NCBI GenBank assembly: GCA_021372535.1
Contig: JAJFUH010000024.1
Location: forward strand, 1 to 32,568
DNA length: 32,568 bases
DNA from: a bacterium
GTDB lineage: Bacteria > Latescibacterota > Latescibacteria > Latescibacterales > Latescibacteraceae
Reading direction: 5' to 3'
Position 1 is the first letter of the stretch; every line of letters starts with the position of its first letter. This document shows positions 226 through 18,724 of this stretch, piece by piece. The translations under genes and the position numbers were made by a program. Below the pieces are notes generated by a model, which saw nothing but the letters and a program-made list of their open reading frames with translations, ran no database searches and had not been told where the DNA came from.

Positions 226-894
226 CTATATCCGGTGATCCTCACGAATAATGACACGGCACCCCCCGTCACGGCTTGTTTTCCAGTTTTTCGGCGGTGC
301 GATCCGTCTGAGCCTGTCGAGCTGCCCGATATCCCTGAGACGGTTATATATGAGCTGCCAGGCGCATTCACGGTCGGGACGGACCTCGCACCTGTCCTCC
401 CGCGAACCTCCGCAGGGACCGTTGAGCAGACGTTTCGCGCACCGTGTCACGGGGCAGATTCCGCCGTAATCGGACAGCACACATGCTCCGCACGATGTGC
501 ACTTTTCGGCCCAGAAACCCTGTTCCTCGAGAATCCCGAGAAAAGCGGTATCGAGACCGGCGTACACCGGCTTTTCACGGTACCGCTCTGCAATAGCCTG
601 GACTCCGGCGCCGCAGCCGAGCGACAGCACCGCTTCGCATCGCCCGATCGCCTCGGCAGCCTGCTCGATAAACACGTTGTCGCACTGGCGCTCGATGGTC
701 AGCTCATCGATTTCAACCGGTGCTCCCCTGAGTCTGGATGCCATCCGGAGGGCCGAAGCAATGATGCAGACCTCACGTTCCCCGCCGGCGAGACACACAG
801 TGACACAGGTACCGCAGCCGAGCACGAGCACTTTCCTGTGCCCCTTCAGTATATTCATGAGTTCGGGAATGGTTTTTCTCTGTGCGACAATCAT
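226..894 (-). CDS. metV: MetV-like methylenetetrahydrofolate reductase C-terminal domain protein
   Basis: This 222-residue protein resembles MetV, the zinc/iron-sulfur partner of MetF in acetogens, where it links the methylene-THF reductase flavoprotein to an electron-donating complex. The N-terminal half is a nucleotide-binding-like fold with cysteines at 27, 30 and 34 and another at 94 (SLGCGAG). The C-terminal half carries the family signature: C132, C135, C138, C147, C152 and C161 in CTSCGACV...CPVTRC...GPCGG. The ATG at 894 has a GAGG Shine-Dalgarno sequence eight bases upstream. It is the last gene of the metF/glt/hdr cluster, separated from mvhD by a four-helix-bundle gene and heptad repeats. 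MetF lies 13 kb upstream at the other end of the same strand run, which is unusual because metF and metV are normally adjacent. Confidence 0.85.
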   Translation of the reverse strand: MIVAQRKTIPELMNILKGHRKVLVLGCGTCVTVCLAGGEREVCIIASALRMASRLRGAPVEIDELTIERQCDNVFIEQAAEAIGRCEAVLSLGCGAGVQAIAERYREKPVYAGLDTAFLGILEEQGFWAEKCTSCGACVLSDYGGICPVTRCAKRLLNGPCGGSREDRCEVRPDRECAWQLIYNRLRDIGQLDRLRRIAPPKNWKTSRDGGCRVIIREDHRI

Positions 895-985: not shown

Positions 986-1372
986 TTAAAGTTCAGCCCC
1001 TTTACAGGTGAGTTTTTTTAGGTAGTGCATGAGTCCGGCAATCAGTTTCTCTGTCGAAGAGGCAAGTTCATACAAGATTTCAAAGTATTCTTTTGTTATG
1101 TACGCATGGTCAAATGCAACATAAAATTGAGATTTTACCTCACCGACAGAGCCTTTTGCAACAGTAAGAAAATGTATAAACTCTCCTGTGCCGTTCCGCT
1201 CAAAGCCTTCTGCGATGTTTGACATAACCGATACTGATGCCCGTCGTATCCGGTCTTTCAGTGTATAATCTTTACAGAAAGGCTCGGTATTCGAACAGGA
1301 ATATACGGCTTTCGTCAATTCACGTGCTTTCTGCCATGCTTCGATATCTTCAAACCGTTGAAATGTAGCCAT
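986..1372 (-). CDS. Four-helix bundle protein (23S rRNA IVS-type family)
   Basis: This 128-residue protein has the hallmarks of the S23/IVS four-helix bundle family: an N-terminal F..IEAWQKARELTKAVY helix, R-RASVSVMSNIAEGFER in the middle, a KGSVGEVKSQFYVA stretch and a closing leucine-rich helix. Family members occur both inside 23S rRNA intervening sequences and as stand-alone genes; their biochemical role is unknown. It lies between mvhD and metV, bounded by heptad arrays on both sides, so it looks like an insertion into the metabolic cluster rather than a subunit of it. No strong Shine-Dalgarno sequence is seen before the ATG at 1372. Family assignment is confident; function is not assignable. 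Confidence 0.85.
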   Translation of the reverse strand: MATFQRFEDIEAWQKARELTKAVYSCSNTEPFCKDYTLKDRIRRASVSVMSNIAEGFERNGTGEFIHFLTVAKGSVGEVKSQFYVAFDHAYITKEYFEILYELASSTEKLIAGLMHYLKKLTCKGAEL

Positions 1373-1452: not shown

Positions 1453-1508
1453 AAACCAGAAACAATAAACCATAAACCATGAACTACAAACCATGAACTA
1501 CAAACCAT
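1453..1508. repeat. heptad tandem array 2 (8 units)
   Basis: Eight contiguous 7-base units read on the plus strand as AAACCAG, AAACAAT, AAACCAT, AAACCAT, GAACTAC, AAACCAT, GAACTAC, AAACCAT. This is the reverse complement of the GTTTRTG pattern seen elsewhere. The array runs into the 3' end of mvhD and supplies its TAG stop codon (1498-1500) and last codons. Confidence 0.75.
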
Positions 1509-1956
1509 CTTTTAACCTGTTCGGTCCCAGCGCACGAACGGTCTCGACCATATCGGTGATGATATCGGCCAGCGGGCGGGCCATGGCAGCCGACACGTTC
1601 ACCATGCGCAGACGGTCTTCCTCGATTCCGATCTCGTTCATCAGGTTCCGGACATAATCGACCCGTTTCCGCGCCCAGAGGTTACCGTTCTGGAAATGAC
1701 ATCCGCCCTCGAGGCATCCGGCCACAAGAACGCCGTCAGCACCGTTTTCAAGGGCTTTCATAAAGAACGGAATTTCGAGCCTCCCCGTGCACGGCGTAAG
1801 GATAATCCGGACATTCGGCGGATATTGAATGCGCATGGACCCCGCGAGGTCGGCGGAGGCATACGCGCAGTAACGGCAGCAGAAGGCCACAATTTTCGGC
1901 TCGAAAGATGTCGAATCCACGTTTTCCAATATTTCCCCGTTTCGTTCAATCACCAT
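1498..1956 (-). CDS. mvhD: MvhD/FrhD-type [2Fe-2S] electron-transfer subunit
   Basis: This 152-residue protein matches the delta subunit of methyl-viologen-reducing hydrogenase, which carries a [2Fe-2S] cluster and delivers electrons to the flavin of HdrA. All expected cysteines are present: C26, C27 and C30 in FCCRYCAYASADLAG, C56 in TPCTGR, and C81 and C86 in CLEGGCHF, followed by GN. It starts 27 bases after the stop of the giant hdrA, so co-transcription and function as its partner are very likely. The start ATG at 1956 has only a weak Shine-Dalgarno sequence. The extreme C-terminus (KDGL and the stop) is encoded by the edge of a heptad repeat array, so the native end may have been altered. 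No hydrogenase large or small subunit is present in the window, which fits a MetFV-linked role. Confidence 0.88.
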   Translation of the reverse strand: MVIERNGEILENVDSTSFEPKIVAFCCRYCAYASADLAGSMRIQYPPNVRIILTPCTGRLEIPFFMKALENGADGVLVAGCLEGGCHFQNGNLWARKRVDYVRNLMNEIGIEEDRLRMVNVSAAMARPLADIITDMVETVRALGPNRLKDGL

Positions 1957-1983: not shown

Positions 1984-4900
1984 TCATACTGTCAATTCAC
2001 GTTCCGGTATTCTCCCGGAGGAAAGGAGTTCCCCGAGCATGATCTCGAAATGATCTGCGCCGTAATGATGAAGCACTATTGCCCGCGCGGGACACTCCGA
2101 GACGCATATCCCGCAGCCCATGCATTTTGCAGCTTCGATCTGGGCCTTGTTATCTGTGTTGACAAATGGCGCCGTATACGGGCACGCTTTTACACAGGTC
2201 ATGCAGGATATGCATTTCTTCTGATCGACCTCGGAAACCTGCGCGCTCACATCGAGCACGGCCTTCGAGATAACCGTTGCAGCCCGCGCCGCGGCTGCAC
2301 GAGCCTGCGATATATTTTCATCCATGAACTTCGGCGAATGGGCAAGCCCGCAGAGGAAAATGCCCTCGGTGGCAAAATCGACCGGCCTGAGCTTCATATG
2401 CGCTTCCACATAGAAACCATCAGCGTTGAGGGGTACTTTCAACAAGTTCGAAAGGCTGCTGTTATGCTCGGGCGCCTCGATCCCCGTGCTGAGCACGACA
2501 TTGTCGGCTTCAATTTCGATGGTGTCCGGGAAATCCGGGCTTTTCACCGCGACGACAGGACCGTTCCCGACCTCGACAACCGGCGGCGCTTTACGGTCAT
2601 ACCGGATAAAGACAACACCCGCTTCCCGCGCCTTTTTGAAGTAAATTTCGCGGAAACCGTATGTCCTGATGTCGCGGTAGAGGACGAATACGTTCGCTCC
2701 GGGGTTCTGCTCCTTTATTCTAAGCGCATTTTTTACGGCCATCGAGCAGCAGATACGGCTGCAGTACAACCGCTCGTCGTTCCGCGACCCGACACACTGG
2801 ATCATGACCACCGTGCGGTCGTCCCGCGGAAATGAACGGTCATGGAGGAGCTTTTCGAGCTCGCGCTGGGTCATGACATGCCCGTATTCGCCGTACCCGT
2901 ACTCCGAGGTTCGAGCGGGGACAGCCCCTGTCGCGACAATCACGACGCCGCCCGAAATCTCTTTGTCGCCATTCTTTCCAGCCAGCGTAACGCGGAATTT
3001 GCCGATATGACCGGCGACAGCTGACACCCCGGTGTCGAGGTGGAGCCTCATGTTCGGATGGTTTTCCGCACGGCGCACGAGACTGTCCGTGAATGATCGT
3101 ATGTCGTTGTGTTCGAGCGTATAATACACATCGAGGAGATTACCGCCGAGAGTTCCGGTGCGCTCGATGAGATGCACGGTAAATCCCTGATCCGCCAGCG
3201 CAAGGGCGGCGGTCATTCCGCTCAGTCCGCCTCCGATCACAATCGCCGCCCGGTCGACTTCGAGCGATCCGCCCTTGAGCGGCACAAGACGGCGTGCACG
3301 GGCAATCGACATGCTCACGAGATCGATGGCTTTTTCGGTTGCCGCATCGGGAGCGGACGAATGCACCCACGAGCATTGATCCCTGATGTTGGCGAGCTCG
3401 AACAGATACGGGTTGAGCCCGGCGTCGCGGAGCGTGTCGCGGAACAGCTCCTCGTGCGTCCGCGGCGTGCACGATGCCACAACGATCCGGTTGAGCCTGT
3501 ACTCGCGGATTGCGTCGCGGATTTCGGACAGACTCGTATCGGAACAGGTATAGAGGGTATGTTTCGCCATGACGACACCGGGCTGACCGGAAACGGCATC
3601 GACAACCCGCCCGACATCCACCACCGACGCGATGTTCATGCCGCAGTGGCATACGAACAAGCCGATACGCGGCTCCTCATCGGTGATATCACGCTCGTCC
3701 GGGTACACCTTTTTCGTGGTGAGCGTATCGCGGGCACGGGCGAGCAGTTCCATGGACATGGAAGCCGCGGCGCTCGCCTGGGTCACCGTCTCGGGAATAT
3801 CCTTCGGCTCATGAAACGCCCCGGCAACAAACACTCCCTCCCGCGAGGTTGCAAGAGGATTGCGGCGGTCGGTGGCGCAGAAGCCATAATCGTTGAGCGC
3901 CACACCGATACGGGACGCGCTTTCACGAACCGTCGCTCCCGGCTCCATGCCTGTCGAGAGAACAACGAGATCGAAATCGTGTTCATCGAGAGCACCGTCT
4001 TCATTGACAAAACGGAGCCGGAGATCGTTTGTCCCGGGAATCTGAACGATACGGGATGGAATGCTCCTGATGTACCGGATACCCGCCTCATGACGGGCGC
4101 GCTCGTAATACTGGTCGAAATCCTTCCCGTATGCCCGTATATCCATGTAAAATATGACCGCTTCGAGACCGGGCAGGTGTTCGCGGGCAACCATGGCCTG
4201 CTTCGTCGAGGCCATACAGCAGATCGATGAACAGTAATCGTTGCCGCAGGTGGCATCACGCGAGCCCACACACTGGATGAACGCAATCCGCCGAGCCTCG
4301 CCGCCGTCCGAGCGCCGGACGATATGACCATCGAACGGCCCCGAAGCAGAGAGCATCCGCTCGAACTGGACATTCGTGATTACATTCGCATAGCGGCCGT
4401 ACCCGTATTCGCCCTTCGCCTCGGCAATAAATTCCTCGAAACCGGGCGCAAGGATGACCGAACCCACATCGATCCCGACCGTCCGCTCCTCCATGGCATA
4501 ATCGATCGCATTATGCTCGCATGCCTCGCGGCATTCCCCGCATTCCGAGCACAGGGCACAGTTGAGGCACCGTTCGCATTCAGCAAACGCCGCTTCCCCG
4601 GAGAAACCAAGCTCGACCTCTTCGAAATTACCGATTCTCAGTTCCGCTTCCAGCTCCGGCGACTCGGCGCGTGGCTTTTTTTCCACACTATTCGTTTCGG
4701 GCAGGAGCTCCTCAGGAATACGCCGTATCGTATTCTCGAACCGTGATGTCCGGAGGTCTTCTCCCCTGAGATACCGTTCGATTGATTCGGCGGCGCGTTT
4801 CCCGGCGGCAACCGCTTCGATAACCGATGCCGGGCCCGACACCACATCTCCGCCCGCGAAAACGCCCCTGAGCGAGGTTTCGAGAGTCACCGGATCGACC

Positions 4901-6447
4901 CTGAAACATCCATGTCCGGTTTCGGCGCCCGTATGGGTGAGAACCCCGCTGTCGGTCGACTGCCCGATGGCGACAATGACGCGGTCTGCACGGATGGTGT
5001 CGCGGTCGCTGTCGTCATACACAGGGCTGAACCGCTTGCTTTCGTCGAAGACACGGACACAACGCCTTAACTCCACACCAGCGACAGAACTATCTCCAAC
5101 GATTCGGGCGGGTCCCCAGCCGTTACGGATCGTGATACCCTCCCGGAGGGTAGCATCGACTTCTTCGGGATAGGCGGGCATTTCGTGACGCTGTTCGAGG
5201 CACACCATCTCCACGCTGTCCGCGCCGAGACGGAGCGCTGTCCGGGCAACATCCACCGCGACATTCCCGCCGCCGATGACGGCAACTTTCCCCGTAATGG
5301 CAGACCTGTCCATACCCGCCTGCCGGAGGAATTCGATTCCGTACGCGACGCCCCGCATCTGTTCGCCCCCGATGCCGAGCGTGCGGCTCTTCTGCGCCCC
5401 GACGGCAATGAACACCGCATCGTGGGATTCACGGAGACTCGTGAGCGTCATATCGTCGCCAAGACGACAGTTGAAGACAAAGGCGACACCCCTGCGCCGG
5501 ATAAGCTCGATTTCGTGGTCGAGCACCTTTTTAGGGAGACGGTATTCGGGGATTCCCCACCGGAGCATTCCGCCCGCAGCAGGAAGGGCATCGTACACGG
5601 TCACGGCGAAACCGGAGCCCGCCAGATCGTATGCGGCGGTCAGTCCCGCCGGTCCTGCGCCGACAACAGCCACTTTTTTCGCATCCGGCAGCGGTTTCTT
5701 TTCTTCGGGTAGAATATATTCGCCCGACTCGATGAGCTCCATCTCACGGTCGGAAGCGAATCGCTTGAGCTGCCGTATGGCGACCGGAGCATCAACCGTC
5801 CCGCGTGTGCACTCCGTTTCGCAGGGATGAGTGCATATACGGCCGCAGATTGCTGACAGGGGATTACGCTCGCGAATCAGGCTCACCGCTTTTATATACT
5901 CTTTTTTACCGATAAGCCGGATATACCCCTGGACATTGACATTAGCCGGGCAGGCAACCTTACAGGGAGCATGACCCTGTTTGAGAATATCGACGACATT
6001 CGGCACAGCCTGGGCATAGTGCTTTGCAATCGCCGTCCGGGTCCCAAGGTTACGGTCGAAACGGTTCGGGATGTTGACAGGGCAGACCTCGGTACAGTCC
6101 CCGCAGCCGGTGCAGAGATGCTCGTCCACATACCGGGGATACCGTCTGACCATCGCCCTGAAACGGCCCGGCTCGCCATCGAGCCCCATGAGGTCGGAGA
6201 GCGTCAGTATCTCGATATTGAGATTGCGCGCGCACTCGACAAGCTTCGGCGAAACGATGCAGGTCGCGCAGTCGCCGGTCGGGAAGGTCTTGTCCAAGTG
6301 TGACATCATGCCGCCGATAGCCGGAGAACGTTCAACAAGGTATACCTTGAAGCCGGAATTCGCCAGATCGAGCGCCGCCTGAACGCCGGCGATTCCGCCG
6401 CCCTGAACGAGCACGGCGCCTGTTTTTTTATCGTTGTTTTTTGCCAT
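1984..6447 (-). CDS. hdrA: Tandem HdrA with nested GltD-like NAD(P)H-flavin module
   Basis: This 1487-residue protein is about twice the usual HdrA length. In order it contains an FAD motif GGGIAG (16-21) and the first half of the HdrA ferredoxin domain, C112/115/118/122. A complete GltD-type module follows at about 155-620: a cysteine-rich N-terminus C161, C166, C201, C205, C209 and C213, FAD motif GAGPAG 263-268, NAD(P)H motif GGGNVA 392-397, and GGD 532-534. Next comes the second ferredoxin half (C624-C643) and the rest of HdrA unit 1, with CVGSRD 726 and CSSICC 739-744. A second, full HdrA unit starts at about 928, with an N-terminal domain around CHCGMN 933, FAD motif GGGLSG 1072-1077, CVGSRN 1218 and CSRICC 1229-1234. 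Two C-terminal [4Fe-4S] motifs end it (C1412-C1422, C1442-C1452). Three flavins are predicted. HdrA is the electron-bifurcating subunit in known Hdr complexes. The gene follows hdrB by 9 bases and precedes mvhD by 27. Confidence 0.92.
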   Translation of the reverse strand: MAKNNDKKTGAVLVQGGGIAGVQAALDLANSGFKVYLVERSPAIGGMMSHLDKTFPTGDCATCIVSPKLVECARNLNIEILTLSDLMGLDGEPGRFRAMVRRYPRYVDEHLCTGCGDCTEVCPVNIPNRFDRNLGTRTAIAKHYAQAVPNVVDILKQGHAPCKVACPANVNVQGYIRLIGKKEYIKAVSLIRERNPLSAICGRICTHPCETECTRGTVDAPVAIRQLKRFASDREMELIESGEYILPEEKKPLPDAKKVAVVGAGPAGLTAAYDLAGSGFAVTVYDALPAAGGMLRWGIPEYRLPKKVLDHEIELIRRRGVAFVFNCRLGDDMTLTSLRESHDAVFIAVGAQKSRTLGIGGEQMRGVAYGIEFLRQAGMDRSAITGKVAVIGGGNVAVDVARTALRLGADSVEMVCLEQRHEMPAYPEEVDATLREGITIRNGWGPARIVGDSSVAGVELRRCVRVFDESKRFSPVYDDSDRDTIRADRVIVAIGQSTDSGVLTHTGAETGHGCFRVDPVTLETSLRGVFAGGDVVSGPASVIEAVAAGKRAAESIERYLRGEDLRTSRFENTIRRIPEELLPETNSVEKKPRAESPELEAELRIGNFEEVELGFSGEAAFAECERCLNCALCSECGECREACEHNAIDYAMEERTVGIDVGSVILAPGFEEFIAEAKGEYGYGRYANVITNVQFERMLSASGPFDGHIVRRSDGGEARRIAFIQCVGSRDATCGNDYCSSICCMASTKQAMVAREHLPGLEAVIFYMDIRAYGKDFDQYYERARHEAGIRYIRSIPSRIVQIPGTNDLRLRFVNEDGALDEHDFDLVVLSTGMEPGATVRESASRIGVALNDYGFCATDRRNPLATSREGVFVAGAFHEPKDIPETVTQASAAASMSMELLARARDTLTTKKVYPDERDITDEEPRIGLFVCHCGMNIASVVDVGRVVDAVSGQPGVVMAKHTLYTCSDTSLSEIRDAIREYRLNRIVVASCTPRTHEELFRDTLRDAGLNPYLFELANIRDQCSWVHSSAPDAATEKAIDLVSMSIARARRLVPLKGGSLEVDRAAIVIGGGLSGMTAALALADQGFTVHLIERTGTLGGNLLDVYYTLEHNDIRSFTDSLVRRAENHPNMRLHLDTGVSAVAGHIGKFRVTLAGKNGDKEISGGVVIVATGAVPARTSEYGYGEYGHVMTQRELEKLLHDRSFPRDDRTVVMIQCVGSRNDERLYCSRICCSMAVKNALRIKEQNPGANVFVLYRDIRTYGFREIYFKKAREAGVVFIRYDRKAPPVVEVGNGPVVAVKSPDFPDTIEIEADNVVLSTGIEAPEHNSSLSNLLKVPLNADGFYVEAHMKLRPVDFATEGIFLCGLAHSPKFMDENISQARAAAARAATVISKAVLDVSAQVSEVDQKKCISCMTCVKACPYTAPFVNTDNKAQIEAAKCMGCGICVSECPARAIVLHHYGADHFEIMLGELLSSGRIPERELTV

Positions 6448-6456
6448 AAATACTGT

Positions 6457-7332
6457 TCACTTCCCTGATTCCCCGATTTTGCGGATAACCCGTTCCGGCG
6501 ATACCATGAGCCTGTTCATGCCGAGCTCCTCCGGCGTATACCCCATGCAGAGTCCGAGAAGCTGAGTGAAATACATAATCGGCATATCATAGAGTTTTCC
6601 CGTCTCACGCTCGATATCCCTCTGCCGCAGATCGAGGTTCGACTGGCACATGGGGCATGAAACCGCGATACACTCCGCCCCGGCGGCTCGCGCCATACCG
6701 ATGATGGAATCGGCGAGCCTGATAACCACATCCGTTCGCGTCAGGGAAAGCCCCCCGCCGCAGCATTCGACCTTGTGCGGCCAGTCGAGGCTCTCACCTC
6801 CCATGGCGGTTACGAGACGGTCGAGCGAGGTCGGATTCTCCGGGTCATCGAAGCCCGTGACCTCATGCGGACGCACCATGAGACACCCGTAATAACACGC
6901 CACTCTGAGACCATTGAGCGACCGTGAGAACGACCGTTTCAGCGTTTCGAGCCCGACATCATCGAGGAGCACCTCGATCAGATGACGCACCCTCACAGAG
7001 CCGTCATAATCTCTGTCGAGCGCATCGGCGACACATTCGCGCATGACCGGATTCGACAAAACCTCGTGGTTTGCGGTCTTCATACGGTTGTAGCAGGCAG
7101 CGCAGTTCACCACCATATCCTTATCCATATCACGGACGAGGAGGAGACTCGCGGATGGAAGAGCGGCGGCCAGAACACGGTCGGTCTGGTGCGCAGCAGT
7201 CGCTCCGCAGCATGTCCACCCTTCCGGCTCGACAAGATCGAGACCGAGAACACGGGCGACCGCAAGGGTCGATTCGTGCATGTCACGGGCTGTCGAATGC
7301 GCGGAACAGCCGGGAAAATATGCATAGGTCAT
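6457..7332 (-). CDS. hdrB: HdrB-type heterodisulfide reductase subunit (two CCG domains)
   Basis: This 291-residue protein has the usual HdrB length and two intact CCG motifs, which in HdrB bind non-cubane [4Fe-4S] clusters that reduce the terminal acceptor. The first is C9, C41-C42 (CCGATAAHQ), C77 and C80. The second is C146, C190-C191 (CCGGGLSLTR), C226 and C229. The start ATG overlaps the hdrC stop codon in an ATGA, which implies translational coupling. The stop lies 9 bases before hdrA. In methanogens HdrB reduces CoM-S-S-CoB. In a bacterial MetF/MetV setting the acceptor is unknown and may be a neighbouring flavoprotein. Confidence 0.9.
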   Translation of the reverse strand: MTYAYFPGCSAHSTARDMHESTLAVARVLGLDLVEPEGWTCCGATAAHQTDRVLAAALPSASLLLVRDMDKDMVVNCAACYNRMKTANHEVLSNPVMRECVADALDRDYDGSVRVRHLIEVLLDDVGLETLKRSFSRSLNGLRVACYYGCLMVRPHEVTGFDDPENPTSLDRLVTAMGGESLDWPHKVECCGGGLSLTRTDVVIRLADSIIGMARAAGAECIAVSCPMCQSNLDLRQRDIERETGKLYDMPIMYFTQLLGLCMGYTPEELGMNRLMVSPERVIRKIGESGK

Positions 7333-7898
7333 GAGCCGGTTCCTCTATTCCGTTTTATTCTGTCAAATATCCGCCGTACCATACTGCTGCCCGAACCGCG
7401 CGGAGGGATGAGCGCGATTTTACCCTTTTTCAGCATCGCGGGAAATTTTTCGGTATCTTTCATGAAACTGAGGGTACCGAGCTTGTAGGCGCCGATCATC
7501 CCGAGATCGTACGTTCGCCCGAACAATCTGACCGTTGCCAGAAATGCGCGGTTGAAGAGCGGAACATTGCCCTTCCGCAGCGGCGCACCCTTCTCAATGG
7601 CGAGAGCACGGAGCGCGTCCATGACCGCCGCGAGATCGATCCCCATCGGGCACCGCGCCGAGCATGTCTCGCATGAGGCGCACACCCATATGATGTCGCT
7701 CCGAAGCACCTCATCGCCTATTCCGAGGTGAAGCTGCCTGATGACCTCCGAGGGCAGCGACTGTGCGAATCCGGCAACCGGGCAACCGCTCGTGCATTTC
7801 TTGCACTGGAGGCAAATCCCGAGATCGACACCCGAGATTGCTTCCACGCGGCCGATGAGAGCCTTCGATTCGTTCCCTTTTTGTATCCTGACAGGCAT
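7329..7898 (-). CDS. hdrC: HdrC-type iron-sulfur subunit
   Basis: This 189-residue protein carries two [4Fe-4S] motifs, C29/32/35/39 (CLQCKKCTSGCPVAG) and C73/76/79/83 (CASCETCSARCPMG), as in HdrC, which wires HdrA to HdrB. The reading frame stays open further upstream to 8147, but that extension would run through repeat DNA and has no family similarity. The ATG at 7898 (MPVRIQ) is therefore chosen. No Shine-Dalgarno sequence is visible because a heptad array begins two bases upstream of the ATG. It overlaps hdrB by 4 bases. The C-terminal 70 residues are basic and hydrophobic, ending RIKRNRGTGS. Confidence 0.88.
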   Translation of the reverse strand: MPVRIQKGNESKALIGRVEAISGVDLGICLQCKKCTSGCPVAGFAQSLPSEVIRQLHLGIGDEVLRSDIIWVCASCETCSARCPMGIDLAAVMDALRALAIEKGAPLRKGNVPLFNRAFLATVRLFGRTYDLGMIGAYKLGTLSFMKDTEKFPAMLKKGKIALIPPRGSGSSMVRRIFDRIKRNRGTGS

Positions 7899-7899
7899 A

Positions 7900-7934
7900 G
7901 TTTCAAGTTTGTGGTTTGTGGTTTGAAGTCTATA
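7900..7934. repeat. heptad tandem array 3, left part (5 units)
   Basis: The units are GTTTCAA, GTTTGTG, GTTTGTG, GTTTGAA, GTCTATA, directly abutting the hdrC start codon. The array breaks off where the MITE-like element begins (7936) and resumes on its other side at 8196, so both parts look like one original array. Confidence 0.65.
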
Positions 7935-7935
7935 G

Positions 7936-8195
7936 TGTCCGGTTAAAATTGCATTAAAATCAGAAAATATCTTGTAAAAAGGGCATTTATCAGAATATGG
8001 AGTGTTTTGGATATGATTATTCCCCCCATTTCTCCACCCGAACTCACCCCTTGATCCCCTCTCTTTCCAAGAGAGGGGGAGCGCCATCAACATCTGTATT
8101 ATCAAAATGTTATGCGCGGGGTGAGTTCTCGTATTTAATAAGAGCATTGTAGATTTTGCTTCAAACTACAAATTCTTCAATATTTTTACCGGACA
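7936..8195. mobile_element. MITE-like element, complete copy B (about 260 bp)
   Basis: The element is bounded by short terminal inverted repeats: TGTCCGGTTAAAATT at the left (from 7936) and TTTTTACCGGACA at the right (to 8195). It contains an internal hairpin with 10-bp arms CCCCTCTCTT/AAGAGAGGGG (8056-8065, 8069-8078), nested inside the pair ACTCACCCC (8042-8050) and GGGGTGAGT (8118-8126). About 196 bp (7932-8127) repeat at 6-202 in the opposite orientation. There is no transposase gene. No clear target-site duplication was found. It separates the glt genes from the hdr genes. Confidence 0.75.
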
Positions 8196-8314: not shown

Positions 8315-10978
8315 TCATTCCATGGTGATCTGTTCCACCGTCTCATCATCGATATACACTTCGGATGTTCCCGACGCAAGAACTGCTACCCGCTCGGGCA
8401 CGACCTTCCGGTACACCTTTACGGGAGCCCACTGCCCGCCGTTCACTCTCAGCAGATCATCCACCGTTATCCCGAAAAGCCGTTCGTTTTCTTCAAGGTA
8501 GGGCAGAATCAACTCCCAGTCACGCTCGGTCATGGATACGAACTTCCCGCCGTTCAACTGCTCGTCAACCACAGTCTTTCCCGGATCGCGGATATAAATC
8601 GCTCCGCCCGAGGCAAGGGAGAACAGGTTGCTCCCGGGGTATGGTTCCCGCTGCGGTATCACATGCCCCTCGTCATCGAACGCGAGACCGTTCAGCACGA
8701 CAAACCCGCCGCCGTTGAGCGGATCGCCCGCCATGAACGATTCCGCGAGGAAATCGAGACAGGTGCCGTTGATCACCACCCTCGGCTTGCCCACCGCATT
8801 GATGAGCGGCCGTCCCGCCGCGTTCCCGAGCACATAGACGCTGCCCCCTTTCGCGCCGTATAAGAATGTCTGTCCGACATCGCCGTATATGACCAGTTTC
8901 CCGCTCTTGAGAATCTGGCCGACCTGATCCTGGGCATTGTTGTGTACCCTCATAGTGAGCCCGTCGAGACCCGACCCGAGATAATCTCCGGCGCTGCCGT
9001 ACACATCGATGGTAACATCTTCGGTCGCGGGTCCCAGCCCGCAGCCGGAGAACCGCTGGCCGAGATAGCCGAAACTGATGAAATGCCGCCATCCAAGCAT
9101 GTACGCATCGAGAAGAAGCGCCGCATCGCAGCCGTTCCCTTCGGGAGGGAACCGGCTCGCATCGATGACAAGCGTGGTTTCGTTCCGGTCGGGTGAACGG
9201 AGCGCAGTACGATGCTCCGCATCTATGAGACGGTACGATCCGGGAACATCGGCTTCGGCGTTCAGGCGGGGAAGACTTCTGAGCAGACGGTCGAGCTCGC
9301 CCCGCACGATCGCAAGAACGTGGCTCCGTTTCTTTGCTCCGGTTCCGTACCGCCGGTCGTTGAGAAAGGTAAATGCTTCAATCGCCGCTGCCGTATGTTT
9401 CGGGTCGCGGCCATATTCGCCTACGATCCTGCAAACGGCCCCAAAATCAACGAAGCTCAGGCGTGGGAGCGCATCGCGGACATACTCGAAGAGCGGGAAT
9501 CCGCCGCCGGTTTCGAGGCTGCTCATGATGGCTTTTTCATAGTCCCATCCGGCGCCGTTCGTGACCGCGGGCTCTTGTGAAAAACCGCACGCCTCCGTTC
9601 CACCGGGCATGGGCACGGGTATTCCGAATTTGTCGGTGCACGAGATGCGCATCGCTCCGGCAGCGTTCTTCTCCATGTTGAATATGAACGCTCCGCCGTC
9701 CGTATGGCTTCCGCCGCGGGCGTTCCAGTAACGGTCGGCGACGGGGCATATGCGTTTGTCCTCTTCCGACAGGCTTAAAAGGGTCGCGTCGATTGCCTGT
9801 TTCTCGGAGCTGATGATTCCCACCTGGACATCGCCGTCCGAAAACGCGAACACCTGCGGACGGAGCATCGCCGTATCCGTTATGCCAAGGAGCTGGAGCC
9901 TGTTTTTACGGGGGATATTCCGCGCGATGATGAAAAACCAGGGGCCGTCCGGGGAACCATGAATATGGGTGGCCTGCACCGCACGGTATATCGCCTGTTT
10001 ATCGGGCGGAAGACGGTCGAAATCGAGCTCCGTCGTGGGAGCCATCGCCTCGATGATGTATTCGAGCGGGTAACGGTACCCCCGGTCAAACAGGTCGAAC
10101 AGGAGCACCGCAACCTCAGTGTCGGTAAGGAACTGCGGGTATATGCCGCGCTGTTTGAGGTATTCGGTCACCGAGTGATAGTTGGCAAAATCGCCGTTAT
10201 GCACGAGCGCCATGTTGATGCCCGCGAAGGGATGTGCGCCGCCGGGGTGCCACAGACGGCCCTTGGTGGGATAACGCTGGTGTGCGATCCACACATGGGC
10301 GCAGAGGTTCTCGATTCGGTAGTATTTGACAATCGCCTCGGCATACCCGACAACCTTGAGGATCATGATATTCCTGCCGTGCGACATGACAAACGCCTTC
10401 TTGTCGCCGAGAGAGGCATAGTAATCACGGTTGAGGAGGAAGCTGTTACGGTTGACGAATTCATCCTCGGCCTCACGGCGGTCGAGACCTCCGAGACTGT
10501 GCTCTGTGATGAAGGAATCGAGCACATCCGGCTTCACGCGGACGAAATAACGACACACATCGGGCGGCCTGACCTCAAGTCCCCCGACCGACTGCCAGTC
10601 TTCGACCGTGTCGACCATTCCCGCCGCAGCAACATCAAAATGCGGGGCGATGTATATACGCTCAAGGTCGGATTGCACCGAACGGTCGAGAAAAGCGACA
10701 TGGAGCAGATAGCATTCGTCGAGTACCTCACGGGTGACACCGAGCTGCTCCGGCAGAAGCCCCACTGCAGCGACACCGCCTCCCTTGCCGTTTCCACGGT
10801 TATGCATCTGCACCGAGGGCTTATAAATATGCCTCCCGGGAACGGGTTCGGTGCAGCAGAACCCGATGACGCCGCAGCCGCCTTCTTCCTCGGGTTTTCT
10901 GTGCCCCGCCGGAAATCCGCTTTCACCGTGAGGGTGTTCCCCGTCTCGCAGGCGTTTTTGTATCATGTCATCGATCAT
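8315..10978 (-). CDS. Glutamate synthase amidotransferase plus GXGXG domain protein
   Basis: This 887-residue protein combines a class II glutamine amidotransferase domain with the GXGXG beta-helix domain of glutamate synthase and lacks the FMN domain. The predicted catalytic cysteine is C35 (GGCGVIGF); the 34 residues before it would need removal, as with the GltB propeptide. Other amidotransferase signatures are HQRYPT 233-238, HNGDF 260-264 and TDTEV 285-289. The C-terminal region (about 600-810) shows the repeated glycine pattern of GXGXG (YGDVGQTFLYGAKGG, NAAGRPLINAVG). It releases ammonia from glutamine; the FMN proteins encoded just upstream would supply the reductive half-reaction. 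The ATG at 10978 has AGGT about ten bases upstream; a second in-frame ATG lies at 10966. It is separated from the FMN gene by 78 bases. Confidence 0.88.
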   Translation of the reverse strand: MIDDMIQKRLRDGEHPHGESGFPAGHRKPEEEGGCGVIGFCCTEPVPGRHIYKPSVQMHNRGNGKGGGVAAVGLLPEQLGVTREVLDECYLLHVAFLDRSVQSDLERIYIAPHFDVAAAGMVDTVEDWQSVGGLEVRPPDVCRYFVRVKPDVLDSFITEHSLGGLDRREAEDEFVNRNSFLLNRDYYASLGDKKAFVMSHGRNIMILKVVGYAEAIVKYYRIENLCAHVWIAHQRYPTKGRLWHPGGAHPFAGINMALVHNGDFANYHSVTEYLKQRGIYPQFLTDTEVAVLLFDLFDRGYRYPLEYIIEAMAPTTELDFDRLPPDKQAIYRAVQATHIHGSPDGPWFFIIARNIPRKNRLQLLGITDTAMLRPQVFAFSDGDVQVGIISSEKQAIDATLLSLSEEDKRICPVADRYWNARGGSHTDGGAFIFNMEKNAAGAMRISCTDKFGIPVPMPGGTEACGFSQEPAVTNGAGWDYEKAIMSSLETGGGFPLFEYVRDALPRLSFVDFGAVCRIVGEYGRDPKHTAAAIEAFTFLNDRRYGTGAKKRSHVLAIVRGELDRLLRSLPRLNAEADVPGSYRLIDAEHRTALRSPDRNETTLVIDASRFPPEGNGCDAALLLDAYMLGWRHFISFGYLGQRFSGCGLGPATEDVTIDVYGSAGDYLGSGLDGLTMRVHNNAQDQVGQILKSGKLVIYGDVGQTFLYGAKGGSVYVLGNAAGRPLINAVGKPRVVINGTCLDFLAESFMAGDPLNGGGFVVLNGLAFDDEGHVIPQREPYPGSNLFSLASGGAIYIRDPGKTVVDEQLNGGKFVSMTERDWELILPYLEENERLFGITVDDLLRVNGGQWAPVKVYRKVVPERVAVLASGTSEVYIDDETVEQITME

Positions 10979-11056
10979 ATCACATGACCTGCATAATGCA
11001 TTTCACCGGTTTCTCTCTTCTGTTCCGTTCCATGTTCCACGCCAAGGTGGAATGAA

Positions 11057-12625
11057 TTACCCGTCGTTCTCGTAATCGAGGTGCATGAGCAGGTCGGTCC
11101 TCCCGCGTAATTCCCCCACGCTTCGCATACCGAACCGCCGGAGGATTCTCACAATCTCGCTGCGCCATGCATTGTAAAGGTTGATAAGCCGCTGGGTGCC
11201 CCAATCTATCTGTATCTTCATGGAAAGCTCCGGATCGGTCGTCGCGATACCCCGGGGACAGCCGCGTCCGCTCTCGCACCGTCCGCACCGCACACACCCG
11301 AGCGCCACAAGCTCCGCCGTACCGACAACGGCGCCATCCGCACCGAGCGCGATGGATTTCGCGATGTCATGAGCCGACCGTATGCCGCCGCTCGCCATAA
11401 GGGTGACCTCGTCCCGAACTCCCTCGGCCACCAGAAAACTGTGTACCTTCGGAATGGCATACTCGACGGGCATGGCGATGTTCTTCTTGGCGATGTCCGG
11501 AGCCGCTCCCGTTCCACCGTAACCGCCGTCCAGGTGAACGATGTGCGTTCCCGCGGCATAGCTCCCCACGGCAACCATATCGACATCGGTCGGCGTCGAT
11601 ACCTTGGTCGATACGAGGGCGCGGCGGTTGATATGCTTTATCCAGTCGAGGTGTTTCTTGTGATCCTCGATCGAATACACGCTGTGGAACGGGAACGGCG
11701 AAAACAGCGAGCTTCCGACCACCGCTTCCCTCATCCGGGCGACATCGGGTGTATTCTTGTCGCCGAGCAGGTGACCGCCGAGTCCCGGTTTCGCACCCTG
11801 CGCATACTTGAACTCCACGATGGGGACGCGCTGGATTGTTTCCTCGCGCACACCGAAAAGCCCCGTTGCAACCTGGGTGATCACATGGTCGTCGTACGGT
11901 CTCAGGCGCTCCATATATCCGCCCTCGCCGGTGCAGGTGAACGTGTTCCATGCCACAGCAGCCCGGGCTTTTGAAAGCTGAGTAGCATTGCTCACTGATC
12001 CGAAGGACATCCCGCCGCCATACCACGGTACATCGATCCTGATGCGCGGGCGGCCGTCGTTGCGACGGTTGAGCCCGATGGAGGTGTCGATTTCGTCCTC
12101 ATCGAGCTCCACAGGCGGTTTATCGGGAAACCTGAACCTGATACGGTCGAAGCCGCCGCCGCTGTCGCCGCAGTTATACTCATAACCGTATTCGTCCGGA
12201 GGAACAACGCCCGTTCTCGCCATTTTCCATGTGGCAAGAATCATATCCGCTGTCCATCGGGCATCGCCGAGCGCCTGCATGGCGGGACTTTCCGCAAGTC
12301 TGAGGGCGTTTTGCGGGCAGGCGGTCACACAGAAATTGCCGGTCGACTCGCACGTTGGACCGATGCAGAGGTGATTGTTCGCCGCGCCGAAATGCCTGTA
12401 TCCCGGCATGAGAACATGCACCCCGCGCAGGCATACTTCCGCGCATGTGCCGCAGAGACGGCAGTCGCTGCTGCGGTGGATAATCCATTTCGCGATCTCG
12501 TTGCGGAAACGCGGGGGCGCAGGGCGAACAATACGTTCGACACGAGCCTGGGGAACACGTGTCTTCAGCGTATTCCCGGGGATAATTTCCTCAAGCCCGT
12601 TTTCGTTTTCCGAAAAGTTTGCCAA
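11057..12625 (-). CDS. Glutamate synthase FMN-domain protein with N-terminal ferredoxin
   Basis: This 522-residue archaeal-type glutamate synthase core carries two N-terminal Fe-S motifs (C55/58/61/65 and C87/92/99/103). The complete FMN/2-oxoglutarate domain follows: GGMSFGS 204-210, QGAKPG 276-281, SIEDHKKHLDWI 318-329, DGGYGGTGAAP 366-376, ASGGI 411-415. The cluster motif is C444/447/450/456 (CVRCGRCESGRGCPRGIA). It makes glutamate from 2-oxoglutarate and channelled ammonia. The start is set at a TTG (12625) because GAGGAGG lies five bases upstream of it. An upstream TTG at 12649 would have no such site. The gene overlaps the preceding one by 35 bases, so translation is probably coupled. 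This is the copy expected to be catalytic. Confidence 0.88.
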   Translation of the reverse strand: MANFSENENGLEEIIPGNTLKTRVPQARVERIVRPAPPRFRNEIAKWIIHRSSDCRLCGTCAEVCLRGVHVLMPGYRHFGAANNHLCIGPTCESTGNFCVTACPQNALRLAESPAMQALGDARWTADMILATWKMARTGVVPPDEYGYEYNCGDSGGGFDRIRFRFPDKPPVELDEDEIDTSIGLNRRNDGRPRIRIDVPWYGGGMSFGSVSNATQLSKARAAVAWNTFTCTGEGGYMERLRPYDDHVITQVATGLFGVREETIQRVPIVEFKYAQGAKPGLGGHLLGDKNTPDVARMREAVVGSSLFSPFPFHSVYSIEDHKKHLDWIKHINRRALVSTKVSTPTDVDMVAVGSYAAGTHIVHLDGGYGGTGAAPDIAKKNIAMPVEYAIPKVHSFLVAEGVRDEVTLMASGGIRSAHDIAKSIALGADGAVVGTAELVALGCVRCGRCESGRGCPRGIATTDPELSMKIQIDWGTQRLINLYNAWRSEIVRILRRFGMRSVGELRGRTDLLMHLDYENDG

Positions 12626-14000
12626 ACGTTTCCTCCTCGAGTTCCTCAAAAAACATAGCCCGGCCGGTCTCGCCGCGGAGACGGCGTATCTCGCGCATTC
12701 CCATAGCGCCCATGACCTCGATCAACTGGCCGTGCCATGCCCCGATGAGATTGGTCATCCGGCCGGCGCCGTATTCAAAATCGATATTCCCCAGCTGTGC
12801 AGGGCACGGGAGTTCCGGTTCACACCGCCTGCACAGGTGGCATTCAAGCGCAATCATGAGCGGCAGATCGATCGTGACAAGGTCGGCCCCGCAGATTATC
12901 GCCTTTGCCAGATGTTCGGGCAGCGCTATCCCGCCGCTCGCAATAATCGTGATTTCGTCACGTATGCCATCATCGACGAGTGTCCTGTGGATTTGGCGCA
13001 GCATATCCTTGATGAAACGGGGGTTCTCCGCACCGGTTTCATTCCCGTTGAGGTCGGCGACAACATGCACCGTCTCGACGGTTTTATCACGGGCAAGCTC
13101 GATTGCCCGCCCGACACCGTCCGGAGTCAATTCGACCCTGACAGACACTACCATTTCCGGATGAACATCTTTGATGGATTTTATACGGTCGATGACATCA
13201 TGACTGTCCGGAATCTCGACGAGCTTCGTCTGCCCGAGCACTTCTTTCGGCGGTTCCGGCGAATCGCAGGAAAGGAAAAAAGCGATATGCGGGAGGTATT
13301 CCCCGGTATCGAGACCCACAACCGGCCACCGTCGTGAATCGATAACCGTGAGCAGACCCGTCCTCAACGCGGTAGCAGCTTTCGGAATCTCCAGCTCCGG
13401 GAACCCATACCGCTCCGGGCTCATGTCGAGTATCAGCGGCATGGGCAGCGTCACAAGCTGCGGAAGGTCGTCCGCCGGACATTCCCTGTCGAACGCGAGA
13501 CAGGGGAGTTTACGACCGATATCGACAGAGGTGCTGATATACTCGCGGCCATGGATGCCATCCCGCGTGGGCCTTACAATCTCCGACATATCGGTCCACA
13601 TCGAATCGAAACCGGCACCGCTGAATTTCCCACCGTACCCTGCGCCCGAAACGGGGATTTTCCCGGTTTCTGCCTGGAGCCATGTAGTCCTGATTATATC
13701 GGGAGTCCAGTACCCGTTGCCGAGACGTTCATACACCGGATTGATTACCATGCCTAAAAGATTCTTCGTGCAGTCCTGAACGCAGCTGAAACACCCCATG
13801 CAGTCGAAAAACAGGGCATCGACATCGCTCAGATGACGGATATAGTCCATTTCCTGGCGGTGACGGTCATAGACGCATGCCTTCTTGACGCAGTTATGGC
13901 AGCGGGCGCAGTCCTCACGCCAGTCGACAACGCCGTGTTTACCGATACGGGGCCGTCTCGGTGGAACCGGCGTCGTTTCTATGTGATACTTTTCCGGCAT
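12591..14000 (-). CDS. Divergent glutamate synthase FMN-domain-like ferredoxin protein
   Basis: This 469-residue protein has the same layout as the next gene: two [4Fe-4S] motifs (C31/34/37/42 and C67/70/73/77), a TIM-barrel-like domain with ASGGI 354-358, and a terminal cluster motif C387/390/393/399 (CHLCRRCEPELPC). It lacks QGAKPG, GGMSFGS and GGTGAAP, so FMN or substrate binding is probably changed or lost. It may be an electron-transfer or regulatory partner of the catalytic FMN subunit. The ATG at 14000 has no Shine-Dalgarno sequence: a heptad array occupies the leader from 14004. It overlaps the catalytic FMN gene by 35 bases. Membership of the glutamate synthase-related family is clear; its specific role is not. 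Confidence 0.8.
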   Translation of the reverse strand: MPEKYHIETTPVPPRRPRIGKHGVVDWREDCARCHNCVKKACVYDRHRQEMDYIRHLSDVDALFFDCMGCFSCVQDCTKNLLGMVINPVYERLGNGYWTPDIIRTTWLQAETGKIPVSGAGYGGKFSGAGFDSMWTDMSEIVRPTRDGIHGREYISTSVDIGRKLPCLAFDRECPADDLPQLVTLPMPLILDMSPERYGFPELEIPKAATALRTGLLTVIDSRRWPVVGLDTGEYLPHIAFFLSCDSPEPPKEVLGQTKLVEIPDSHDVIDRIKSIKDVHPEMVVSVRVELTPDGVGRAIELARDKTVETVHVVADLNGNETGAENPRFIKDMLRQIHRTLVDDGIRDEITIIASGGIALPEHLAKAIICGADLVTIDLPLMIALECHLCRRCEPELPCPAQLGNIDFEYGAGRMTNLIGAWHGQLIEVMGAMGMREIRRLRGETGRAMFFEELEEETFGKLFGKRKRA

Positions 14001-14075: not shown

Positions 14076-14981
14076 TTACAGCCCTGCCAGATCGAGCACA
14101 GCGGGTACAGCCTGTTCGTTTCCGCCCGAAAGAATGTGAATCCCCCGCAGACCTTTCATATTCTTCAACACCTGTATCACCTCGGCGCAGACAGTTATAC
14201 CTTCACGGCGCTGAGCCTTTTCGTCGCCGGCAGCCCGAAGCCGTCCGATAATCTCATCAGGAATCCGGAATTCCGTGTACGTATCCCGGAGCCGTTCAGC
14301 CTGAACGGCGCTCACGAGAGGCAGAACACCGGCGAGAATACATGCCTTTTCCGGTATGCCTTCAGCGCGGGCAGTGTCGAGCCACTCCCGGAAACATTCC
14401 ACATCGAACACCGCCTGAGTCTGGATGAAATCCGCGCCAGCCTCGACCTTCTTTAAAAGCCGTATCATATTCAGTTCGAGCGGTTTCATGAACGGGTTTG
14501 CCGTTCCGCCAACCAGCACGGGGAATTGCCCCCCGATTGGAGTTCCCCCGATAAGAACTCCACGTTCACGCATCCCGTTCACCGCTGCAATAAGCTGAAC
14601 CGAATCGATATCGTATACATTCGCCGATTCGGGACATCCACCCAGCGTCTGGTGGTAACCGGAAAGGCAGAGCACATTCCTGATACCGAGACACGCCGCG
14701 CCCAGCAGATCGGATTGCAGCGCTATACGGTTCCTGTCGCGCGTTACCACCTGATATACCGGCTCGATTCCCGACCGGAAAAGAACCACCGAAGCAGCGA
14801 TGGCTGACATCACCACGCCATCGGGATTATCGGATACATTCACTGCCGTTACCCGCCTGTCGAACAAACCCGCGGCGCTCTGTACCGGAGCTTCATCAGT
14901 TCCCGTCTGCGGCAGATATTCGGCGGTAATGATAAAACCGCTTTCCGCAAGTGTGCGCGCCAATGTATTTTCTGGTTTCAT
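14076..14981 (-). CDS. metF: 5,10-methylenetetrahydrofolate reductase
   Basis: This 301-residue protein matches the MetF TIM-barrel family (about 290-300 residues). It has an early glutamate in ITAEYLPQTG, NVSDNPDGVVMSAIA, YQVVTRDRNRIALQSDLLGA, NVLCLSGYHQ, and GADFIQTQAVFDVECFREW near residues 183-201. The reaction reduces methylene-THF to methyl-THF in the methyl branch of the Wood-Ljungdahl pathway or in methionine synthesis. The ATG at 14981 has AGGAG about eight bases upstream. The small MvhD-like gene precedes it by 54 bases. With metV, hdrABC and mvhD on the same strand, the acetogen-type complex is more likely than a stand-alone NADH-dependent MetF. Confidence 0.92.
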   Translation of the reverse strand: MKPENTLARTLAESGFIITAEYLPQTGTDEAPVQSAAGLFDRRVTAVNVSDNPDGVVMSAIAASVVLFRSGIEPVYQVVTRDRNRIALQSDLLGAACLGIRNVLCLSGYHQTLGGCPESANVYDIDSVQLIAAVNGMRERGVLIGGTPIGGQFPVLVGGTANPFMKPLELNMIRLLKKVEAGADFIQTQAVFDVECFREWLDTARAEGIPEKACILAGVLPLVSAVQAERLRDTYTEFRIPDEIIGRLRAAGDEKAQRREGITVCAEVIQVLKNMKGLRGIHILSGGNEQAVPAVLDLAGL

Positions 14982-15035: not shown

Positions 15036-15467
15036 TCAGCGGCTCCCCTGAGCGGACGATGATAATGCCTCGTTATCAAACAGGATTTGTTTCAGTTCGG
15101 CGCGGAAATGCTCTATATCGCCGATGAGCTTTTCCATTCCATCTTCTTCAATCTGGATAACCGAAATACGGTTCCCATCGAGTCCGATCTCGCGAAGCAG
15201 GGCATCAACGGCCTCAGCCCGTTTACCGGCCCGCAGGTTTCCCTCGATGTAGCGGCATTCACCATTCCTGCACGTTACGATAATCACCCCATCCGCGCCT
15301 GTTTCAAACGTCTTGATCAGATAGAGAACATCGACTTTCCCGGAACACGGTATACTGACAGTCTTCAATACATCACCGGAGTTTTCACCTAATCGCTGCC
15401 CCAGCGCCTCGGTATCAACATGTGTCGAACAGCAGAAAATATAAAGTTTTAAAGGACGGTGCGTCAT
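15036..15467 (-). CDS. Second MvhD-like protein, with a C-to-H change in the cluster motif
   Basis: This 143-residue protein aligns with MvhD over its whole length (IFCCSTH, IPCSGKVD, GADGVIIVTC..GECRYIEGN). It keeps C12, C13, C41, C66 and C71, but the third cysteine of the first motif (FCCxxC) is a histidine (H16). The [2Fe-2S] cluster may therefore have altered ligation and potential, or be missing. It is the first gene of the metF/glt/hdr run, with GGTGAG six bases upstream of its ATG. The position next to metF suggests it serves a MetF or glutamate synthase branch while the canonical MvhD serves HdrA. That division of labour is inference. Confidence 0.8.
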   Translation of the reverse strand: MTHRPLKLYIFCCSTHVDTEALGQRLGENSGDVLKTVSIPCSGKVDVLYLIKTFETGADGVIIVTCRNGECRYIEGNLRAGKRAEAVDALLREIGLDGNRISVIQIEEDGMEKLIGDIEHFRAELKQILFDNEALSSSAQGSR

Positions 15468-17683: not shown

Positions 17684-18724
17684 ATGAAAACACATCTCCT
17701 AAGACAACCTGATTTTAACCAGTTTCTCAAAGTTATTACCCGCAAGGGCATGCCCGATCATCTCCCTTTTTACGAACATCTTGCCAGCCCGGGATTTATC
17801 GCAAGACGGACTGGAACGGCCTTCGATACCATGTCGCTCGATGACCCGGGTTACTGGAATATTTATGTCGATTTCTGGGTCGGTATGGGATTCGACTGCA
17901 TACGGATGGAGATTCCCCTCAACTGCCCTTTGAAAGAGATTCACGACCATAAACATTCGTACGGAAGCGAAACGTATGCAATCATAAAAACCCGTGACGA
18001 TTTTGAACGATATCCCTGGCCAGATGAATCAGAACCCATTGATTTCACTCATTTTGAAACTGTTGCTGGCATCATCCCCGAAGGAGTGAAGATTGTGGGC
18101 GGGGTCTGCATGGGACCATATGAATGGGTATCCCGGCTCATGGGAGTCATGGGGCTGTCGTACGCTCTTGCCGATGATCCCGGGCTCGTGGAATGCATTT
18201 TTTCAAGGATTGGCGTCCTTCACAGAAGCGCGGTGAGGCAGCTCGCTTCCATGGATGCGATCGGCGCATTGAGCCAGGGAGACGATCTCGGATTCAAGAG
18301 CTCGACTTTCCTGAGTCCTGCCGATCTGAAAAAACTCGTCTTTCCCATCTATAAAAACATGACCGGCGAAGCCCACGACCGCGGGAAGCCCTTTATTCTC
18401 CATTCGTGCGGTAATCTGAAAGAGGTTTACGATGACCTTATCACGGATTGCGGAATCGATGCTAAACATTCGTTTGAGGATGTAATCTTGCCGGTGGAAG
18501 ACTTTAAAAAACAGTACGGCGACAGGGTCACACCTCTGGGCGGTCTCGATGTGGATGTCATCTGCCGGGCAGAAAGGGATGAACTCCGGGCTTATACCCG
18601 GAAAAAAATCGAGTCCTGCTTCCATGATGGCTATTGGGCGCTCGGGACGGGGAATTCCCTGACCGATTACATGCCTGTCGAGAATTATATCGCCGTTCTC
18701 GAAGAAGGAATGAACATCAGATAA
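17684..18724 (+). CDS. Uroporphyrinogen decarboxylase (UroD) family protein
   Basis: This 346-residue protein belongs to the UroD/MtaA-type TIM-barrel superfamily: GGVCMGPYEW 139-148, SQGDDLGFKSS 197-207, HSCGN 240-244 and GGLDVD 286-291. Members include heme-pathway decarboxylases and corrinoid methyltransferases such as MtaA/CmuA. The HSCGN motif and lack of heme-gene neighbours favour the methyltransferase-like or uncharacterised branch over true HemE. No corrinoid protein lies beside it. It is the only complete plus-strand gene in the window. AGGAA lies about 12 bases before the ATG, rather far. It converges with the response regulator gene 18 bases downstream, with no visible terminator hairpin. 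Confidence 0.82.
   Translation: MKTHLLRQPDFNQFLKVITRKGMPDHLPFYEHLASPGFIARRTGTAFDTMSLDDPGYWNIYVDFWVGMGFDCIRMEIPLNCPLKEIHDHKHSYGSETYAIIKTRDDFERYPWPDESEPIDFTHFETVAGIIPEGVKIVGGVCMGPYEWVSRLMGVMGLSYALADDPGLVECIFSRIGVLHRSAVRQLASMDAIGALSQGDDLGFKSSTFLSPADLKKLVFPIYKNMTGEAHDRGKPFILHSCGNLKEVYDDLITDCGIDAKHSFEDVILPVEDFKKQYGDRVTPLGGLDVDVICRAERDELRAYTRKKIESCFHDGYWALGTGNSLTDYMPVENYIAVLEEGMNIR

Follow-up and report, generated by a model that had tools for sequence, protein, structure and literature searches.

The MetFV-HdrABC-MvhD complex of Moorella thermoacetica was reportedly described by Mock in 2014. The HdrA chain of this acetogen was described by Kremp et al. 2022 (PMC9430772) as a protein in which GltD interrupts the TrxR and ferredoxin domains and a second unit (residues 922-1487), without the inserted ferredoxin, comes after them; three FAD, eight [4Fe-4S] clusters and one NAD(P)H site were predicted for it, and the Moorella homolog oxidised NADH at 190 U/mg. 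We examined a gene of the same kind, hdrA, within a 32,568-nucleotide stretch (the window) of contig JAJFUH010000024.1, from a genome of the uncultured phylum Latescibacterota. By comparison with the published description, the window protein has the same domains and the same last residue (1487) as Moorella HdrA, which is likewise encoded with metVF, hdrCB and mvhD. We read the product as an NADH-oxidising, pseudo-dimeric HdrA that carries a permuted GltD module in its ferredoxin loop and serves MetFV via HdrBC and MvhD, with a probability of about 0.78; it would be a further example of an enzyme already known in an acetogen.

The gene is one open frame of 1487 codons running from 6447 to 1984 on the minus strand, confirming the single chain seen in an earlier note on this DNA, which had named no strand. 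Pfam and NCBIfam profiles recognised three pyridine-nucleotide-reductase-like flavoprotein regions, together with an N-terminal Fe-S domain of the GltD type and a number of 4Fe-4S motifs; counting motifs gave three sites for FAD and about 9 for [4Fe-4S] clusters. The gene and its parts are as follows, in window coordinates.

1984-6447, minus strand: hdrA (HdrL / Moorella-type), a predicted HdrA(GltD)-HdrA pseudo-dimer of 1487 residues, with 40 single-frame homologs
5986-6447, minus strand: N half of the unit 1 TrxR/FAD domain (residues 1-154), containing C63, the Cys197 equivalent
6082-6114, minus strand: ferredoxin motif 1 (C112-C122), within the N half of unit 1
4552-5985, minus strand: inserted GltD/NfnL-type module (residues 155-632), circularly permuted
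4552-4656, minus strand: GltD segment (residues 598-632) aligning with the NfnL N-terminus
4519-4551, minus strand: motif 2 of the inserted ferredoxin (C633-C643)
3733-4518, minus strand: C half of the unit 1 TrxR/FAD domain (residues 644-905), with E696 and K749 conserved
3262-3699, minus strand: unit 2 N-terminal Fe-S domain (residues 917-1062)
2248-3261, minus strand: unit 2 TrxR/FAD domain (residues 1063-1400), without an inserted ferredoxin, with E1198 and K1239 present
2047-2247, minus strand: C-terminal dicluster ferredoxin domain (residues 1401-1467)

When the protein was aligned with solved HdrA chains (8rvu, 5odc), four separate stretches of it matched. Residues 13-154 and 631-840 corresponded to 8rvu residues 155-296 and 299-508, which are consecutive parts of one HdrA chain, so that the break falls exactly between both motifs of the inserted ferredoxin; residues 917-1075 aligned with the HdrA N-terminal domain, and the C-terminal part with the TrxR domain and then the C-terminal ferredoxin. 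The eight HdrA-type ferredoxin cysteines (C112/115/118/122 and C633/636/639/643) were invariant in 41/41 sequences. The insertion of GltD between both ferredoxin motifs, as claimed in the earlier note, therefore stands, but the second motif had been drawn there as C624-C643 and is instead C633-C643: C624 was kept in only 8/41 sequences, and C627/C630 are part of the GltD module and not of the HdrA motif. Residues 154-663 exceeded the curated cutoff of the GltD-like family PRK12771, and the closest solved relatives of the insert were the GltD parts of NfnABC and StnC. Comparison with NfnL revealed a circular permutation of the insert: residues 598-632 match the NfnL N-terminus and residues 160-563 the remainder. 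Fer4_20 profile matches in relatives showed the permuted order as well. Since both stretches adjoin in NfnL, the insert should begin and end at nearby points in space, which suits insertion into a loop; the permutation explains how an insertion at the HdrA loop can leave the ferredoxin intact. We infer that C627/C630 and C162/C166 close a common GltD cluster.

An AlphaFold2 model of residues 1-905, built from 57 diverse sequences, gave a mean predicted local distance difference test score (pLDDT) of 90.1 and a predicted template modelling score (pTM) of 0.84, with both ferredoxin halves at about 85-94. (A previous AlphaFold model of residues 1-1062, made with close homologs only, was weak in the HdrA part, with pLDDT 72 and pTM 0.51.) Foldseek alignments of the 1-905 model to HdrA chains spanned about 900 columns and left GltD as a gap. 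The target template modelling (TM) score was 0.93 with 8rwn_A and 8rvu_a, and 0.88-0.89 with 7bke_A and 7bkd_a. Scores of 0.60-0.63 were obtained with full-length HdrA chains, as was to be expected, since the modelled stretch does not contain the N-terminal domain and the C-terminal ferredoxin. Within the model the GltD module had the NfnL/GltD fold, with FAD and NAD(P)H Rossmann domains (4ylf_B, target TM 0.80; 9bov_A, root-mean-square deviation 2.6 over 485 columns). The structure prediction called for in the earlier note, run here on residues 1-905, thus has both ferredoxin halves folding together around GltD, and the sequence matches and the folded model both support an NAD(P)H module built into HdrA and occupying the ferredoxin slot. 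The candidate arrangement with GltD merely appended between two HdrA proteins was rejected, as Foldseek matched one HdrA chain across the insert.

The layout recurs widely. Forty close homologs, all single open frames, were 62-74% identical to the window protein and came from Latescibacterota, Planctomycetota, Chloroflexi, Desulfobacterota, Verrucomicrobiota and Ignavibacteria/Bacteroidia; in a quick tree this close clade was monophyletic with support 1.0. About 148/345 Desulfobacterota genomes (counting matches with E below 1e-190) encoded a protein that matched residues 1-905 without a break at 47-69% identity, in most cases within a frame of 1470-1520 residues, and the domain order was identical in all 30 Desulfobacterota homologs fetched. 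An assembly join, named in the earlier note as grounds for refutation, or a chance fusion had nothing found in its favour and is refuted by these homologs of the same order; its probability is practically nil.

Comparison among homologs further indicated that one HdrA loop is empty in some and in others takes either GltD or a split NuoE/NuoF/HoxU module. Homologs in loci L050 and L073 were without any insert. In L048 (9983-16044), which has the same operon, two genes encode HdrA, divided within the ferredoxin domain, and NuoE-, NuoF- and HoxU-like parts fill the GltD position; a NuoE/NuoF/HoxU module lies in the same slot in L065 too, and HdrA-NuoE fusions occurred in 16/298 genomes of the L048 class. 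NuoEFG-metFV clusters, named X type, have been noted in Desulfobacterales and Chloroflexi in a paper on another methylenetetrahydrofolate reductase (MTHFR). The slot being empty, filled with GltD or filled with NuoE/NuoF/HoxU, these would be exchangeable electron-input modules. Two other arrangements were observed: a tandem HdrA (L072:415-3354) in which an inserted response-regulator receiver domain directly follows the second ferredoxin motif of unit 1, and, from the same host phylum as the window, a single-unit HdrA with an N-terminal domain and a GltD insert (the type III form; L068:988-4461) that adjoins mvhD.

With respect to the nucleotide, the window protein carries Leu417-Glu418 at the position where NADPH-type relatives carry Arg-Arg. 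The pocket motif switches between YRR and xLE across the tree (CLE in the window protein), and Glu occupied this site in 37/41 close sequences. Leu417-Glu418 suggests NADH as the substrate; the GxGxxA rule used in PMC12054007 would indicate NADP for the window protein, contrary to this reading.

The two HdrA units differ in what they hold. Unit 1 has the inserted ferredoxin and the Cys197 equivalent, whereas the N-terminal domain and the ferredoxin of the C-terminus are missing from it. Both of these, with a TrxR domain, are found in unit 2 (917-1467); a separate search with the second half showed no inserted ferredoxin there, and 5odc numbering showed no Cys197-type ligand. The earlier note had called unit 2 a second complete HdrA unit, which it is not; judged from their sequences, the two units are complementary halves of a pseudo-dimer. 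Cys197 of 5odc is the second Cys of DCSIC, C63 in the window protein, and was kept in unit 1 in 40/40 sequences covering that region and missing from unit 2. In methanogens the partner HdrA supplies Cys197 as a ligand to the cluster of the HdrA N-terminal domain. Here the cluster of the unit 2 N-terminal domain is probably completed by C63 of unit 1, in which case the chain would act as its own HdrA dimer. A type I (methanogen-type) HdrA holds the N-terminal domain, TrxR, inserted ferredoxin and C-terminal ferredoxin in one chain; the window protein differs from it, its features being divided over two units and its ferredoxin interrupted. In four loci (L050, at 1227-1229, L123, L124 and L126) an in-frame TGA was observed exactly at the Cys197-equivalent codon, consistent with selenocysteine, which the HdrA and HdrL of Desulfobacterium autotrophicum are reported to contain (Strittmatter 2009, PMC2702500).

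The equivalents of the E356/K409 pair, markers of bifurcation, occur in both TrxR units (E696 in 41/41 sequences, K749 in 41/41, E1198 in 37/41 and K1239 in 41/41), at positions 696/749 and 1198/1239 compared with 696/750 and 1204/1246 in Moorella HdrA. K775 ('GKDF') was considered as the bifurcation lysine, which would have meant its loss in unit 2, and was rejected, as 5odc numbering gives K749 and K1239. In the path we favor, NADH would reduce the FAD of GltD. The GltD clusters, closed by C162/C166 and C627/C630, would then hand electrons to the ferredoxin clusters next to them (C633-C643 with C112-C122), which would pass them to the unit 1 TrxR FAD, and HdrBC/MvhD would carry them from that FAD to MetFV. 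One or both TrxR flavins would probably bifurcate, or confurcate if the flow is reversed. Two points weigh against this: bifurcation by the Moorella complex is a proposal, and no co-reduction was found for the related Sporomusa MTHFR, which has no GltD (PMC9430772). The Sporomusa result would also suit a non-bifurcating enzyme in which GltD passes NADH electrons linearly via HdrA to MetFV with no low-potential product, as would the FAD of the StnC GltD, which does not bifurcate and merely feeds an Fe-S chain, and the chance that GltD blocks ferredoxin docking at the inserted ferredoxin, as proposed for type III HdrA. However, a linear path would not need two TrxR flavins, nor does it account for an E/K pair kept in both units, and we consider it possible but unlikely.

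The genes around hdrA bear on what the chain works with. They are listed in window coordinates.

226-894, minus strand: metV-like gene (MTHFR C-terminal family), conserved in homologous loci
1498-1956, minus strand: mvhD (FlpD)
6457-7332, minus strand: hdrB, with two CCG motifs conserved
7329-8147, minus strand: hdrC; the listed open reading frame probably begins upstream of the true start
8315-10978, minus strand: glutamate-synthase-like GATase + GXGXG protein
11057-12649, minus strand: glutamate synthase FMN domain (GltB2-like) with an N-terminal ferredoxin
12591-14000, minus strand: second, diverged Glu_synthase-domain protein with N-terminal ferredoxin-like cysteines
14076-14981, minus strand: metF (MTHFR)
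15036-15467, minus strand: second mvhD (FlpD)

Gene order in the close clade was mvhD2-metF-two Glu_synthase genes-GATase/GXGXG gene-hdrC-hdrB-hdrA-mvhD-metV, rearranged once, in L023, L025 and L028. Alignments and the predicted model together show a permuted GltD in the ferredoxin loop of unit 1, complementary HdrA units, and a conserved operon with metF, metV, hdrBC and mvhD. The earlier note had taken the protein for a self-contained NAD(P)H-oxidising bifurcating hub needing no separate FlxABCD or hydrogenase. Neither FlxABCD nor hydrogenase genes were recognised in the window, in keeping with the latter part, and an NAD(P)H module with two TrxR flavins in one chain would suit such a hub; however, hdrC, hdrB, two mvhD, metF, metV and three glutamate-synthase-like genes are co-encoded in the window and close relatives, and the strict co-occurrence with HdrBC, MvhD, MetF and MetV favors a multi-subunit complex, which leaves a self-contained hub very improbable. 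Between mvhD and metV the window also has a gene (986-1372, minus strand) for a 23S rRNA intervening-sequence-type (IVP) protein, with no match listed in homologous loci, and close to the metF operon a gene (17684-18724, plus strand) for a URO-D family protein, possibly a corrinoid-type methyltransferase.

The three glutamate-synthase-like genes (8315-14000, minus strand) stand between metF and hdrC and are kept across six phyla. The GATase/GXGXG gene was found in 29/29 close loci with sufficient upstream sequence, and the FMN site, 3Fe-4S-type cysteines and amidotransferase Cys appear conserved. These results would fit an alternative in which the GltD part of HdrA is the small subunit of a glutamate synthase formed by the three neighbours, the operon making glutamate with HdrA-delivered electrons. 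Against it, the same kind of HdrA occurs in the wider family where these genes are absent (12/20 wider Desulfobacterota homologs adjoined both metF and metV, and 0/20 the glutamate-synthase set), and the window genome has two further large, complete glutamate synthases, a stand-alone GltD and glutamate dehydrogenases; we regard this alternative as improbable. Genomes with the operon carry other GltD-like proteins and mostly glutamate dehydrogenases, so HdrA-GltD may not be the sole possible partner of the operon's glutamate-synthase-like proteins. In the close clade, the NADH-oxidising complex that we prefer would be associated by gene order with the split glutamate synthase. The conserved operon hints at a larger complex, and it is a speculative and rather doubtful extension that GltD-in-HdrA is the shared NADH entry of a ten-gene machine, MetFV-HdrABC-MvhD plus the split glutamate synthase, coupling one-carbon redox to nitrogen assimilation. 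The operon is present also in genomes without acetyl-CoA synthase: CdhC was not found in the window genome and was present in 17/34 genomes searched. With no CdhC there is no sign of a complete Wood-Ljungdahl pathway in the window genome, so the complex might physiologically run in either direction; this, too, counts against our preferred reading. The window genome also has another metF-like gene of full length.

Among known systems, HdrL of D. autotrophicum (PMC2702500) is by description a large HdrA/glutamate-synthase fusion with an NADH site that adjoins mvhD, like the window protein; two of three HdrL are selenoproteins and HdrL1 adjoins dsrABC, whereas in the window protein the Cys197 position is occupied by Cys. 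In HdrA9-11 of ANME-1 (Chadwick 2022, PMC9012536) and type III HdrA (PMC12054007), an NfnB/GltD module likewise lies within the inserted ferredoxin domain, but the archaeal GltD-HdrA proteins are reported at up to 1182 residues and have GltD in single-unit (type I) forms, whereas in the window protein a tandem chain carries the insert. HdrA3/HdrA4, which are tandem HdrA of type II (Chadwick 2022, PMC9012536), have two units with Cys197 and the N-terminal domain complementary, as in the window protein, although in reversed order, the first unit here carrying Cys197 and the second the N-terminal domain. StnC and the NfnA of NfnABC (8oh5, 9bov, 9n5u) matched the GltD module best in both structure and sequence, and their matches extend across the same C-terminal hairpin; in these GltD is joined to NuoG-like domains and in the window protein to HdrA. 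No paper on the glutamate-synthase operon was found in the open-access literature searched, which is weak evidence of novelty as many journals lie outside that set. The nested architecture is already published for Moorella HdrA, and hence not new; unlike Moorella, the window comes from a different host phylum and its operon adds glutamate-synthase-like genes and a second mvhD, and this ten-gene operon with split glutamate-synthase genes, found across six phyla, is the less familiar part and worth following.

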